From the NCBI GenBank assembly GCA_946408345.1, contig CAMJRR010000001.1, forward strand, positions 186,001-250,000: a stretch of 64,000 nucleotides of DNA, written 5' to 3'. Position 1 is the first letter of the stretch. Each line of letters opens with the position of its first letter. Below the pieces are notes generated by a model, which searched no databases, was not told the DNA's origin, and saw only the letters and a list, made by a program, of their open reading frames with translations. The translations under genes were made by a program, and so were the position numbers. Positions 25,862-29,794 of this stretch are shown one piece after another. This DNA comes from an uncultured Bacteroidales bacterium (GTDB lineage: Bacteria; Bacteroidota; Bacteroidia; Bacteroidales; F082).

Positions 25862-25955
25862 AATTTGTTGAATTGTTGAACTGTTTTGTGTTTAATTGTT
25901 GGAAGTGGTGCTGTTTTTTCAACAATTCAACGATTCAACTCCCAACAATTGGCTT
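25862..25955. repeat. TTGTTGAA word palindrome (family F)
   Basis: The left arm has GTTGAATTGTTGAACTG and TTTAATTGTTGG; the right arm has CAACAATTCAACGATTCAAC and CCAACAATT. It lies between the divergent TonB-like and rlmB genes. Confidence 0.75.
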
Positions 25956-26008
25956 CGTCGAATCGTAGATTTCAACATAATTCCTATTTTTGCAGAAAAT
26001 TTAAGTTT

Positions 26009-26755
26009 ATGGAGGACAATTACAAGAATAATATGGTTTTCGGAATCCATCCTGTGCTCGAACTGATTCGATCACAAAAGGAAATCGAAAAGGTTTATAT
26101 ACAAGGTGGTACGCGCTCGCCCGAGATTGCAGAGATTGCCAACACCTGTCGCGCTAACGGCGTGCCCGTGCAGTTTGTACCCATTGAAAAGATGAACCGC
26201 CTGACACGCAAGAACCATCAAGGCGTGGTGGCCTTCATCTGCCCAATAGAGTATCAGCCGTTGGAGAAGGTGGTGCAAATGGTCTTCGAAGACGGCCGCG
26301 ACCCCTTCATCCTGATGCTCGACCGCGTGACCGACGTGCGCAACTTCGGCGCCATCGCCCGCACGGCCTACGCCGCAGGTGTGGATGCCATCGTCATTCC
26401 CAACCATGGCTCGGCCTCCATCAACGGCGACGCGATGAAGACCTCGGCTGGGGCCTTGTCGTTGATCAACGTGTGCCGTGTGGAGAATCTGAAGGACGCC
26501 ATAGATTTTTTGAAAGCCAGCGGCCTGCGTGTGGTGGGTTTCACCGAAAAGACGCAAGAGAGCCTTTGGAAATCAGACCTCACAGGTCCCCTTTGCGTGA
26601 TGATGGGCTCCGAGGAGGATGGCATCAGCCCCGCCTACCTCAAGCGCCTCGATGACCATCTGATGATTCCCATGCCTGGCGATATTGATTCATTGAATGT
26701 CTCGGTGGCCACAGGGGTGGTTTGTTTTGAAATCGTTCGACAGCGTCAGGGATAA
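26009..26755 (+). CDS. rlmB: TrmH/SpoU-type RNA 2'-O-methyltransferase (RlmB-like)
   Basis: This 248-residue methyltransferase probably methylates a ribose in 23S rRNA using SAM. The N-terminal substrate-binding domain (MVFGIHPVLELIRSQKEIEKVYIQGG) is joined to the SPOUT knot domain with the three motifs LDRVTDVRNFGAIARTA, VMMGSEEDGIS and IPMPGDIDSLNVSVATGV. The start at 26009 was chosen because the -7 box TATTTTTG (25985-25992) excludes the longer frame from 25886, which only translates repeats. The first REP-like palindrome begins five bases after the stop. Confidence 0.92.
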   Translation: MEDNYKNNMVFGIHPVLELIRSQKEIEKVYIQGGTRSPEIAEIANTCRANGVPVQFVPIEKMNRLTRKNHQGVVAFICPIEYQPLEKVVQMVFEDGRDPFILMLDRVTDVRNFGAIARTAYAAGVDAIVIPNHGSASINGDAMKTSAGALSLINVCRVENLKDAIDFLKASGLRVVGFTEKTQESLWKSDLTGPLCVMMGSEEDGISPAYLKRLDDHLMIPMPGDIDSLNVSVATGVVCFEIVRQRQG

Positions 26756-26759
26756 ATCT

Positions 26760-26892
26760 GTAGAGACGTAGCGTGCTACGTCTAATATCGAAAAATTTGA
26801 TGATTGTAGAGACGTAGCGCGCTACGTCTCCACATTGTTTATTTCGCAATTTGTTTTTTGCCGTTTTTAGACGTTGCACGCAACGTCTCTAC
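26760..26892. repeat. REP-like palindromes C1-C3 downstream of the transposase
   Basis: Three palindromes lie at 26760-26783, 26806-26830 and 26869-26892. C1 and C2 have the stem AGACGTAGC/GCTACGTCT with a GTAGAG tail on the left. C3 has AGACGTTGC/GCAACGTCT with the tail CTCTAC on the right, so C1 and C3 form an inverted pair. C3 ends six bases from the transposase stop. Confidence 0.92.
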
Positions 26893-26898
26893 AAGGTT

Positions 26899-27540
26899 TT
26901 ATGGCGTATAAAATTCATCGTCCTTCCAATTCGCCACATTGTTTTCGATATAATCCGCAATGCGGTTCATTTCTGGCGTGTCGCGGATGATGTGGTCGTG
27001 GAAACGGGGTTGCCAGGAAAAATCAAGGGTGTTTTCATTTGCATATTTTGTAACCGCAGATTTTAATCCACGAATGACGGCAGCCAAAGAACCTTGTTTT
27101 GGTGACCTTTCTGCCATGTATTCGTTTTTGTCCGTTGGGTTTGTAGAGACGTAGCGTGCTACGTCTTCTTTTGCATTTGTTTTCGTTGGCATAGAGACGT
27201 AGCGTGCTACGTCTTCTTTTGCAATTGTTTCCGTTGGCATAGAGACGTAGCACGCTACGTCTCTACATGCGGAAATTACGACGATGGCATGAACATGATT
27301 GGGCATTATTGTAAACAGAGGAATTTCCGCATACGGATAATGGGACGTAACGTTATTGAATTGTTCAACAGCGTATTTCCCGATATCAGACAGTACCATC
27401 TCACCATTCCCGATCTCACCGAAAAAATGTTCACGGTTTTTCGTGCAGATGGTGATGAAATATATACCACCGTCATAATCGTGCCATATTGCACGAGCGG
27501 ATTCAATGCGATATTTGTTTTGCCATCTGCCGTCTGCCAT
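26899..27540 (-). CDS. REP-associated tyrosine transposase (RAYT) with in-frame repeats
   Basis: A 213-residue single-strand transposase of the Y1/IS200-like group. It has YDGGIYFITICTKNREHFFG (about 22-41), the metal-binding HUH motif NHVHAI (HVH at 82-84), RGLKSAVTKYANEN, WQPRFHDHIIRD, and the catalytic Tyr197 in RIADYIENNVANW. RAYT proteins nick at REP palindromes. Residues about 93-140 are unusual: three 16-residue units (DVARYVSMPTKTNAKE and variants) encoded by a 48-bp tandem repeat that contains the same palindromes found outside the gene. They split the HUH motif from the rest of the domain. The reading frame is otherwise intact. Confidence 0.93.
   Translation of the reverse strand: MADGRWQNKYRIESARAIWHDYDGGIYFITICTKNREHFFGEIGNGEMVLSDIGKYAVEQFNNVTSHYPYAEIPLFTIMPNHVHAIVVISACRDVACYVSMPTETIAKEDVARYVSMPTKTNAKEDVARYVSTNPTDKNEYMAERSPKQGSLAAVIRGLKSAVTKYANENTLDFSWQPRFHDHIIRDTPEMNRIADYIENNVANWKDDEFYTP
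27143..27266. repeat. Tandem 48-bp repeat with REP palindromes C4-C6 inside the RAYT gene
   Basis: Palindromes at 27143-27166, 27191-27214 and 27239-27266 are spaced exactly 48 bases, a multiple of three, so the frame stays open. Spacers (TTTTGCATTTGTTTCGTTGG and close variants) are also repeated. C6 is extended on both sides (AGAGACGTAGC/GCTACGTCTCT). Confidence 0.93.
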
Positions 27541-27565
27541 GTGTGTTCGTTTTATGGTTTCGTTT

Positions 27566-27684
27566 GTAGAGACGTAGCGTGCTACGTCTATGCTACGCCT
27601 AATGATAGGTCATTTAGACGTTGCACGCAACGTTTTGGGCCATACCGTTTTTTGGCATTTAGACGTTGCACGCAACGTCTCTAC
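27566..27684. repeat. REP-like palindromes C7-C9 upstream of the transposase
   Basis: C7 (27566-27590) is the TAGC type with the left tail. C8 (27615-27636) and C9 (27658-27684) are the TTGC type, and C9 has the right tail CTCTAC. The order mirrors C1-C3 on the other side. C9 ends 10 bases from the DPP5-like stop codon. The 27541-27694 gap holds nothing else. Confidence 0.92.
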
Positions 27685-27694
27685 AAATTCCGCA

Positions 27695-29794
27695 TTATTT
27701 CAAATATTTATCCAACCAATTATAGAACCTGCGTTGCCATAACACGCCGTTCTGCGGTTTCAAAACCCAGTGGTTTTCATCCGGGAAATAGAGGAATTCA
27801 GCATCGAGGCCGCGTAGGATGGCGGCATTGTAGGCCTGCATGCCCTGCGTGAAGCAGATGCGGTAGTCCAATCCGCCGTGGATGACGAGGATGGGCGCGG
27901 TCCATTTGTCGACGAAGAGGTGGGGCGAGTTGGCGTAGGTCCTGCGCACGGTGGGGTTGTTCCAGTCCCAAAAGGGGCCGCCGAGGTCCCAATTCACGAA
28001 CCACATCTCCTCTGTTTCGAGGTATTGGGCGTCAAGGTTGAACATGCCGTCGTGGGCGATGAGAGCCTTGAAACGACCATCGTGGTGACCAGCTAACCAA
28101 TACACGCTGAAGCCGCCGAAGCTGGCACCCACGGCACCGAGACGGTTCTCGTCGATGTAAGGCTCCTTGGCCAGCTCGTCGATGGCGCTGAGATAGTCCT
28201 TCATGCATTGTCCACCATAGTCGCCGCTGATTTCCTCAAGCCATTCCTGACCGAAGCCGGGCAGGCCGCGACGATTGGGGGCAACGATGATATAGTCGTT
28301 GGCGGCCATCATTTGGAAGTTCCAGCGGTAACTCCAGAATTGGCTCACGGTGCTCTGCGGTCCGCCTTCGCAGTAGAGCAGGGCAGGGTATTGCTTGTTG
28401 GCATCGAAGTGAGGCGGGTAGATGACCCACACGAGCATGTCCTTGCCGTCGGTGGTTTTCACCCAACGTTCCTTCACGTCGCCCATGGTGAGTTGGGCAA
28501 AGATCTTGTCGTTCACGGTGGTGATTTGCTTGGCTTCGCCCGAGGTGGGGTCAACGCTGAAGAGTTCGGTCGGGTGGCTCATCGACTGGCGGCCTGCAAT
28601 CAGCTTGTCGCCGTTGTATTGCACCGAGATGTAGTTGTGCTTGCCTTCCGTCAGCTTCTTGATTTCGCCGTTTTCGATGTTCAAAGCGTAGAGTTGGTCT
28701 GTGGCGTAGGCATCGCTAATGAAGTATAAGGTCTTGCTGTCGTCAGCCCAGCTGAAGCCTGTGCAGCATTGGTCGAACTTGGCTGAGTAGTCAGTCTTCT
28801 CGCCCGTTTCGAGGTTCATCACGAAGAGGCGTTGCTTGTCGCTCTCATAGCCGTCGCGCTCCATGCTCTCCCAGGCCATGTATTTGCCGTCAGGCGAGAT
28901 GACGGGGTTGAGGTCGTAGCCCATCATGCCTTCGGTGAGGTTCTTGCACTCGCCGCTTTGGATGATGTATTGGTATATGTCGGTGTTGGTGGAGAGGGCG
29001 TAGTCCTTGCCGACTTTCTTGCGGCAGCAGTAGACGAAGCTCTTGCCGTCGGGCAGCCACTGCACCTGCTCCATGCCACCGAAGGGGCGCACAGGGGCTT
29101 CCCATTGCTCGCCCTTCATGGCGTCGAAGGCGTTTTCAATCTTGCCGTTGCTGAAGTTACCCACGAAGAGGTGACCGTAGGTATCTACCCAATGGTCCCA
29201 GTGGCGGTACATCAGGTCGTTGTTGATGCGGCCTGAGGATTTGTCAAGGTCGGGATAGATGTCGGCCACGGTCTCTTTCAGCTTCACTTCCTTGGTGAAG
29301 AGCACTTGGTTACAATCGGGTGAGTAGAGGAAGCCGTTGATGTCGTCGGCCTCGCTGGAGACGCATTGTCGGCCAGTGCCGTCGGGGTTGATTTCCCAGA
29401 GTTGCATCACGCCGTCATCGTTAGGGGCGAGGAAGCCGATCTTTTTGCCGTCGGGGCGCCATTGTGGGCTGTATTCACTGACGTTGGCATCCGACAGCAC
29501 ACGGTTGTTGGTGCCGTCAGCGTTCATAATATACAAGGTGGAGCCACTGCGGTTTTCGGGCACGCTGTAGTAGGTCACGTTGTAGACGATTTGCTGATGG
29601 TCGGGCGAGAGGCTGTATTCGCCGATGCGGCCCATGCTCCAAAGCACTTCGGGCGTCATGATGTCCGAAGTCAGGGTGAGTTCTTTTGGCCCGATTTTGT
29701 CTTTGCCTTTGGGCTCAGTCTCAGGCTTTTGTGTGTTGCACGATACGATTAGGCAGGTAATCATGGCTAACAAAAGTAAATTACATTTTCTCAT
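27695..29794 (-). CDS. S9-family dipeptidyl peptidase lipoprotein (DPP5-like)
   Basis: A 699-residue serine peptidase of family S9. The lipobox LIVSC (Cys around 19) marks a lipoprotein facing the periplasm or surface. An N-terminal WD-like beta-propeller (about 40-440, with repeats such as YSPQWRPDGKKIGFLAPND and ISPDGKYMAWESMERDG) precedes an alpha/beta-hydrolase domain with GASFGG (Ser558), GGLD (Asp643) and ENHW (His675) as the catalytic triad. Closest to the DPP5 type known from Porphyromonas, which removes dipeptides from peptide N-termini; that assignment is by overall layout. It would help in peptide feeding, like the DPP III protein at 35330. A -7 box TACCTTTG lies at 29853-29860. 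Confidence 0.9.
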   Translation of the reverse strand: MRKCNLLLLAMITCLIVSCNTQKPETEPKGKDKIGPKELTLTSDIMTPEVLWSMGRIGEYSLSPDHQQIVYNVTYYSVPENRSGSTLYIMNADGTNNRVLSDANVSEYSPQWRPDGKKIGFLAPNDDGVMQLWEINPDGTGRQCVSSEADDINGFLYSPDCNQVLFTKEVKLKETVADIYPDLDKSSGRINNDLMYRHWDHWVDTYGHLFVGNFSNGKIENAFDAMKGEQWEAPVRPFGGMEQVQWLPDGKSFVYCCRKKVGKDYALSTNTDIYQYIIQSGECKNLTEGMMGYDLNPVISPDGKYMAWESMERDGYESDKQRLFVMNLETGEKTDYSAKFDQCCTGFSWADDSKTLYFISDAYATDQLYALNIENGEIKKLTEGKHNYISVQYNGDKLIAGRQSMSHPTELFSVDPTSGEAKQITTVNDKIFAQLTMGDVKERWVKTTDGKDMLVWVIYPPHFDANKQYPALLYCEGGPQSTVSQFWSYRWNFQMMAANDYIIVAPNRRGLPGFGQEWLEEISGDYGGQCMKDYLSAIDELAKEPYIDENRLGAVGASFGGFSVYWLAGHHDGRFKALIAHDGMFNLDAQYLETEEMWFVNWDLGGPFWDWNNPTVRRTYANSPHLFVDKWTAPILVIHGGLDYRICFTQGMQAYNAAILRGLDAEFLYFPDENHWVLKPQNGVLWQRRFYNWLDKYLK

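Follow-up and report, generated by a model that had tools for sequence, protein, structure and literature searches.

A subclass 2.4 REPtron of an uncultured Bacteroidales bacterium and the putative exchange of a specificity cassette that carries its own REP sequences

Introduction

Inverted pairs of REP sequences are termed REPINs, and RAYT proteins have been proposed as the agents that spread them. Exchange of DNA specificity is known from type I restriction systems, in which HsdS combines a conserved frame with an exchangeable target recognition domain that changes the DNA specificity of the enzyme. HsdS is unrelated to RAYT, and we know of no case in which its exchanged block contains copies of its own target.

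Two described systems stand closest to the locus studied here. In REPtron Ec of E. coli (Corneloup et al. 2021, PMC8266576), the Y1 HuH enzyme TnpAREP is paired with REPs that possess a GTAG foot, form inverted pairs and come in more than one stem type; the stem is bulged, and the enzyme has a C-terminal extension. According to the accessible part of that paper, helix alpha-3 of TnpAREP (structure 4er8), in which K82 is located, contacts the REP at its bulge, and residues near beta-1, beta-4 and the C-terminus contact GTAG. A Trp, a Gln and a downstream Arg have been named for GTAG recognition in the E. coli protein in the accessible text of PMC6006769. The second system is subclass 2.4 of TnpAREP, which Quentin et al. 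(2018, PMC6006769) place in Cyanobacteria, Bacteroidetes and other phyla. As described in the same portions of their paper, this subclass has double-foot REPs as well as in-frame REPs between HuH and Tyr, the latter given as unique to it, and its HuH-Tyr loop is viewed as peripheral. Rickettsial RPEs and other palindromes are also kept in frame within genes (PMC3733652, accessible part); the hosts described there are mostly unrelated genes, in contrast to the cognate enzyme that hosts the palindromes here.

Here, we describe a RAYT locus in a 64-kb stretch of DNA (the window) from an uncultured Bacteroidales bacterium. Judged by its sequence features, the locus belongs to subclass 2.4 REPtrons, an already-described kind, and shares with the accessible description of that subclass HuH and a single Tyr, WQ, GTAG REPs on both sides (some double-foot), in-frame REPs and Bacteroidetes hosts. 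Measured against the subclass motifs NH[IFV]H, WQ and YIxNNP, as given in that same accessible text, the window has NHVH and WQ but YIENNV; YIQNNP is present in some relatives, e.g. L061. The original prediction, made from the window sequence, had hinted at a couple undescribed in Bacteroidales. For the kind of system this does not hold, since subclass 2.4 covers Bacteroidetes and in-gene REPs (PMC6006769, accessible part). We present evidence from relatives that a central block of the gene has been replaced along with the type of REP that it carries.

Results

A RAYT gene that is flanked by REPs and contains them

The transposase gene had been predicted to have three palindromes to its left, three to its right and three within it, and this layout is right. 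Nine matches to AGACGTNGCNNGCNACGTCT (up to 3 mismatches allowed; eight exact) lie at 26764-27680, and the 64 kb outside this interval contain zero matches at up to 3 mismatches. Shuffled sequence gave a mean of 0.18 and a maximum of 2 such palindromes, and ten simulated 64-kb sequences gave 0-2 matches each. With their feet these palindromes are REPs, that is, GTAG followed by a hairpin, and GTAG-footed plus and minus copies flank the gene as inverted, BIME/REPIN-like pairs. Folding of three single copies as single-stranded DNA yielded a 4-nt GTAG foot and an 8-bp hairpin. The features of the locus, which is bracketed and marked by rlmB and dpp5, are as follows.

25886-26755, plus strand: neighbour rlmB (23S rRNA methyltransferase), start codon provisional; NCBIfam TIGR00186, 204.3 bits, cut-off 160.15
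26760-26783, plus strand: REP with GTAG foot and TAGC stem; pattern match, folding
26806-26829, plus strand: REP with TAGC stem; read on the opposite strand, the hairpin carries GTGG as its foot, nearly a double foot
26869-26892, minus strand: REP with TTGC stem; pattern match, folding
26899-27540, minus strand: RAYT/TnpAREP gene, intact open reading frame of 213 codons plus stop (213 aa)
26950-26952, minus strand: codon of Tyr197, the expected catalytic tyrosine, aligned to a Tyr of 4er8, with Asn four residues on
27043-27096, minus strand: helix alpha-C, expected to bind DNA; approximately residues 149-166, a guessed extent
27061-27270, minus strand: putative minimal exchange cassette, about residues 91-160 (linker with REPs and most of helix alpha-C), from breakpoints in relatives; borders approximate
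27143-27166, plus strand: in-gene REP 1, TAGC stem; pattern match, folding
27144-27239, minus strand: 48-bp in-frame tandem duplication of the linker, copies 96% identical
27191-27214, plus strand: in-gene REP 2, TAGC stem, foot degraded to ATAG (27191-27194)
27243-27266, minus strand: in-gene REP 3, TAGC stem, inverted relative to REPs 1 and 2; pattern match, folding
27289-27300, minus strand: HuH motif NHVH, residues 81-84, aligned to the HuH of 4er8
27566-27589, plus strand: REP with TAGC stem
27616-27635, minus strand: degenerate REP, TTGC stem, one mismatch, footless
27661-27684, minus strand: REP with TTGC stem
27695-29794, minus strand: neighbour dpp5 (dipeptidyl-peptidase); NCBIfam NF053518, 1060.7 bits, cut-off 900

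Two stem types, TAGC/GCTA and TTGC/GCAA, are related by paired changes on their arms, as the original prediction had said; its further statement that one type occurs in each orientation is true of the flanks but not of the inner copies, all three of which are of the TAGC type. Two of the three in-gene palindromes sit within the tandem duplication, and in-gene REPs 2 and 3 together form a long hairpin as DNA (z -10.8). The palindromes of the window are perfect and some of them are in-gene, in both respects unlike the REPs of E. coli TnpAREP. A structured RNA at the locus was considered and rejected because an Rfam scan of 26400-28000 returned no family at gathering score. The search for scattered palindromes proposed with the prediction did find them at low copy number: the full assembly, 3.07 Mb long at 85.7% completeness, contains 11 exact palindromes, 8 at this locus and 3 outside the array, and more at 1-3 mismatches. 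Such a low number, and the presence of pairs inside the RAYT gene itself, set this system apart from REPINs.

The best NCBIfam match of the encoded protein is NF047646 (REP_Tyr_transpos; E 5.6e-16, 58.7 bits, below the cut-off of 80), and Pfam Y1_Tnp matches at E 4.6e-4 and 20.7 bits, below the cut-off of 23; an insert that splits the domain probably costs the protein its family scores. A profile built from the family recovers E. coli TnpAREP 4er8 at E 6.6e-9. In an alignment of 55 sequences, H82, H84, W176, Q177, Y197 and N201 are invariant and R186 is nearly so; W176, Q177 and R186 of the window protein align with W94, Q95 and R104 of 4er8, and residue 164 aligns with K82. By simple NG86 estimates, dN/dS is 0.06-0.12 in three pairs of the window gene with close relatives, and six gene pairs have dN of 0.05-0.15 and dS of 0.49-1.48; on these values the RAYT protein is under purifying selection. 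Profile matches and repeat layout support the prediction of a RAYT whose cognate REPs form inverted pairs, as in REPINs and BIMEs. The window REPtron is best explained as a TnpAREP/RAYT single-strand-DNA nuclease with cognate GTAG hairpins, which lie on its flanks and in its HuH-alpha-C linker, and by analogy with its E. coli counterpart the protein would cleave these palindromes.

The window's genome has further Y1-type transposase matches at G000:C8:58035, C39:11857, C23:22442, C10:83904 and C5:132929 (L035-L038, L040). The C10 match is inside a 1427-aa open frame, and a comparable 1352-aa frame on G067:C10 has one stop within its Y1-type match.

Linker REPs in relatives

At E <= 1e-10, a protein search had matches in 91 of the family's 173 genomes. 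Named genomes, when scanned, contributed 29 loci, of which the closest come from uncultured Bacteroidia and Bacteroidales; the named relatives are uncultured or metagenome-assembled. The 141 loci considered yielded 106 genes in which both motifs are present. Counting the window's gene, 88 of these are distinct, and the N-terminus is incomplete in six of the 88. A REP is present between HuH and Trp, in the linker, in 62 of the 88 distinct genes, the window's included, and elsewhere in the gene in only one (L052, in the C-terminal tail near the 3' end). By the detector used, 26 of the 88 have no linker REP, which indicates that linker REPs are dispensable for persistence of the gene. Of 61 plus-oriented linker REPs, 0 place the foot's TAG in the reading frame, as the open frame demands anyway. 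With a looser detector, GTAGGGGCG-type linker REPs were seen in two distant genes, L091 (Chloroflexi MAG) and L092 (Deltaproteobacteria MAG), and the downstream flank REP of L092 is of the same type as its linker REP. In genome G077, contigs C113, C46, C90 and C115 have GGACGCATCG-type REPs every ~103 bp, in apparent tandem arrays.

Linker and flanking REPs of the same locus agree, with a mean edit distance of 1.43 versus 7.37 when permuted (51 genes; kinship uncorrected); 0 of 10000 permutations were as low, and 30 of the 51 genes were at distance 0 (kinship likewise uncorrected). Strong mismatch, at a distance of at least 6, was found in six of the 51, which we take from the individual rows to be L058, L061, L130, L180, L080 and L163. 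L058, L061, L130 and L180 all combine GGACGCA in the linker with GGCTGTC at the flanks, and are candidates for recent exchanges.

An ordinary subclass 2.4 REPtron might account for such genes if REPs had landed by chance in a tolerant loop, if REP and helix had changed together by point mutation and descent, and if exchange of the central part did not set specificity. The in-frame HuH-Tyr linker REPs published for the subclass, in a loop seen as peripheral (PMC6006769, accessible part), are compatible with this account, as are the HuH-to-Trp distance, which ranges from 36 to 148 residues among relatives, and the 26 genes that lack a detected linker REP. Chance residence does not sit well with the window's clade, in which linker REPs are 98.5% identical versus 66% at third codon positions, a difference that implies renewal or selection of linker REPs at the DNA level. 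The contrast is smaller in the GGCTGTC group, at 89% for linker REPs versus 79% for third codon positions.

Conservation at the DNA level could mean instead that the in-gene hairpins mainly control the gene, self-cleavage or transcript hairpins limiting the transposase and selection keeping its own target inside. The strong long DNA hairpin of in-gene REPs 2 and 3 is in keeping with such control, and so is the occurrence of both orientations in the linkers of 41 of the 88 genes (a double-foot hairpin counting for either orientation). The 26 genes with no detected linker REP argue against it, however, and it leaves unexplained that REP type changes with helix alpha-C. As the main role of the hairpins we consider gene control distinctly unlikely; as a second role it is compatible with the explanation that we favour, an exchangeable block that sets specificity.

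Exchange of the central block at a fixed site

The predicted palindromes around and inside the RAYT gene are real, but cassette exchange is invisible in the window alone and emerges only from the relatives. Compared at the codon level, some gene pairs diverge strongly in the centre and are similar, or nearly identical, at the ends. Among 128 gene pairs at an N-segment distance below 0.15 (82 genes), the distance exceeded 0.35 in 55 pairs for alpha-C and in 50 for the HuH segment, and in 0 for the C segment. Two or three cassette clusters, differing in REP type, are found in 5 of 12 background groups (groups of at least two genes), a tally that hinges on the distance limits chosen. The exchanged centre consists of the linker and helix alpha-C, and at times of the HuH segment too. 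Each of the five mosaic groups includes one or more pairs with collinear neighbouring DNA, which indicates that exchange occurred in place.

L184 and L132 are 98.3% identical over 1633 bp from inside the gene into neighbouring DNA, and on the opposite side of the centre a stretch of 205 bp is 93.7% identical. The 344-bp centre itself, from codon 51 to 16 codons before Trp, has zero blastn match. Identity of 98% beside such a centre is beyond point mutation, and together with the conservation of linker REPs it makes the ordinary-REPtron account unlikely in our judgement. Further pairs are L080/L081 (95.6% over 1882 bp), L053/L137 (95.1% over 1373 bp upstream), L136/L139 (85.3% over 1628 bp) and, in the window's own group, L039/L055 (~91%) and L044/L069 (~89%; range of the two 88.6-90.8%), each over about 1350 bp. 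Within the gene, L053/L137 and L136/L139 mismatch in linker and alpha-C only and keep the HuH segment, so that linker plus alpha-C is the smallest block exchanged. In 44 of the 79 discordant pairs, a script places the 3' border 17 codons ahead of Trp; the corresponding 5' breakpoint script fails where HuH positions differ by a codon, and 5' borders were taken from pairwise comparisons.

The dpp5-rlmB site of the window is occupied by three cassette and REP types among the relatives: TNGC (L039, L042-L045), GGTG (L055, L057, L060, L076) and CGCC (L069, L079, L134). A CGCC REP adjoins L044, a TNGC gene, and two TNGC-like REPs adjoin L076, a GGTG gene. These off-type REPs look like relics of earlier occupants, and could also be ordinary dispersed copies. 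No cassette at >85% DNA identity was found in a distant background (83 pairs with alpha-C distance <0.15, 0 with N or C >0.35), and the donors were thus not caught.

Mosaic genes may also arise as chimeras of metagenome assembly, promoted by repeats, and both the uncultured or metagenome-assembled state of the named relatives and the tendency of repeats to disturb assembly are reasons to consider this. Nevertheless, the largest background group has nine genes with one cassette and five with the other, no two of these genes coming from one genome; the mosaics also stay in frame, and the recurrent 3' border is outside the REPs. We regard assembly chimeras as very unlikely. Whole-tree AU tests are weak alone, as even the halves of one partition disagree, each rejecting the tree of the other (deltaL 232-282, compared with 485-654 between partitions), and the case for exchange therefore rests on pairwise identity and collinear flanks. 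As read from these alignments, the central block has been exchanged in place along with the REP type.

REP type follows the alpha-C segment

Among pairs of genes that share a background (identity averaged over N and C at least 0.8), the mean REP distance was 1.0 when alpha-C was the same (79 pairs) and 8.2 when it was another (67 pairs). In pairs from different backgrounds (57 genes; 'same REP' defined as distance <=2), alpha-C identity was 0.65 in 42 same-REP versus 0.39 in 1130 different-REP pairs; the corresponding values were 0.58 and 0.45 for HuH, 0.54 and 0.50 for N, and 0.58 and 0.56 for C. A test across different backgrounds with 20 representatives ('same REP' at distance <=3) gave p 0.0002 for alpha-C, 0.011 for HuH, 0.059 for N and 0.68 for C; single linkage had fused several of the cassette types found in the background to which the window belongs, and L055 and L069 had no representative of their own. 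Partial Mantel correlations over 59 genes were strongest for N (-0.317), followed by HuH (-0.141) and alpha-C, at only -0.113. Post hoc, we put this rank of N down to the first stem pair, which follows the N-terminus: it is GG in 16 of 16 KSPRA genes and AG in 31 of 32 YRI genes, 14 of the 62 genes being unclassed. A comparison of the 11 pairs that share a cassette but not a background was dropped as unreliable, since 8 of the 11 involve L190, whose N segment is apparently truncated, and 2 involve L049, with REP distance 8; the two analyses across different backgrounds given above take its place.

The contacts described for E. coli fit a division of labour in which the ends of the protein read the foot and alpha-C reads the stem. 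From the distances above we infer that the linker-alpha-C block would set REP specificity.

REP copies across genomes

Copy counts take in matches on either strand, with a score of two for a double-foot REP, and a RAYT was called absent when it was absent among the fetched loci. Of the 173 family genomes, 46 contain the footed TNGC pattern, and all 46 belong to the window's genus. The GGTG type occurs in 40 of the 173, in the window's genus only, and the CGCC-ATGG REP type, in 70 of the 99 genomes of that genus, is broader than either. The CGATTC pattern matched 8 of the 173 genomes and was left out of the association tests.

Copies had been expected to go with presence of the matching RAYT. 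Six TNGC-RAYT genomes have 4-29 TNGC copies outside the RAYT locus versus a median of 0 in 93 genomes (p 7e-4; kinship uncorrected). G067 and G105, however, exceed these numbers with 65 and 58 TNGC matches, and the loci fetched from them include no matching RAYT. GGTG copies outside the locus number 25-60 in four genomes with the type versus 0 in 95 (p 8e-5; kinship uncorrected), and CGCC copies 4-66 in six genomes versus 5 in 93 (p 0.03; kinship uncorrected), so that CGCC copies track RAYT type weakly. When genomes are sorted by the occupant of the dpp5 site, TNGC copies exceed GGTG copies in 5 of 5 TNGC-type genomes and GGTG copies exceed TNGC copies in 4 of 4 GGTG-type genomes; CGCC counts ignore the site type, at 9, 14 and 19 in CGCC-type versus 12-23 in TNGC-type genomes. 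The genome with the most GGTG copies, G097, nevertheless has a RAYT with an inner stop. Among genomes with mismatched genes, G080 (assembly 92% complete) has a sole exact GGACGCA match, the copy inside the mismatched gene L180, as expected if a new type arrives first within the cassette; the other such genomes have 28 (G100), 16 (G063) and 8 (G132) GGACGCA matches.

Discussion

These observations favour, with a probability of roughly 0.7, a REPtron with a portable linker-alpha-C specificity cassette that carries its own substrate and is replaced at a fixed site. As inferred from E. coli TnpAREP, the protein would bind a REP hairpin in single-stranded DNA, cleave and join it by means of HuH and Tyr197, and so spread REP pairs. 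The conserved ends would handle catalysis, the foot and the base of the stem, and the linker-alpha-C segment would read the body of the stem, a contact suggested by the correlation of segment and REP type. Sequence comparison shows that recombination at a fixed chromosomal site replaces the linker-alpha-C block whole, in some cases together with the HuH segment upstream of it. In the genes compared, the REP type switches with the block, and the new block mostly comes with copies of the new REP type already in its linker. Mismatched and relic flanks suggest that the new REP type would then spread from these seeds to the flanks and the genome as the old type decays; linker REPs may in this manner seed new REP families.

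Cassette exchange is perhaps best read as somewhat like the exchange of recognition domains in restriction enzymes. In the accessible part of the subclass 2.4 paper (PMC6006769) there is a variable insert, and not an exchange of a linker and alpha-C block with change of REP type. Our literature search, which reached part of the literature, found no earlier report of RAYT cassette exchange, and none is contained in the accessible portions of PMC3686654 and PMC8049555.

We see about an even chance that these RAYTs are modular, a cassette swap at a fixed locus changing the target and bringing seed copies, and linker REPs labelling the specificity of each helix and thereby giving a readable protein-DNA recognition code. 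Such a code could be read from sequence alone, because in most of these genes the linker spells out the target, and in the natural pairs L184/L132, L053/L137 and L136/L139 the cassette is the main difference. REP families vary from one species to another, and with target change and seed copies arriving together a new family could be founded in one step. If this is true, one event would move both the recognition helix and copies of its target, and enzyme and hairpin would change type without losing each other.
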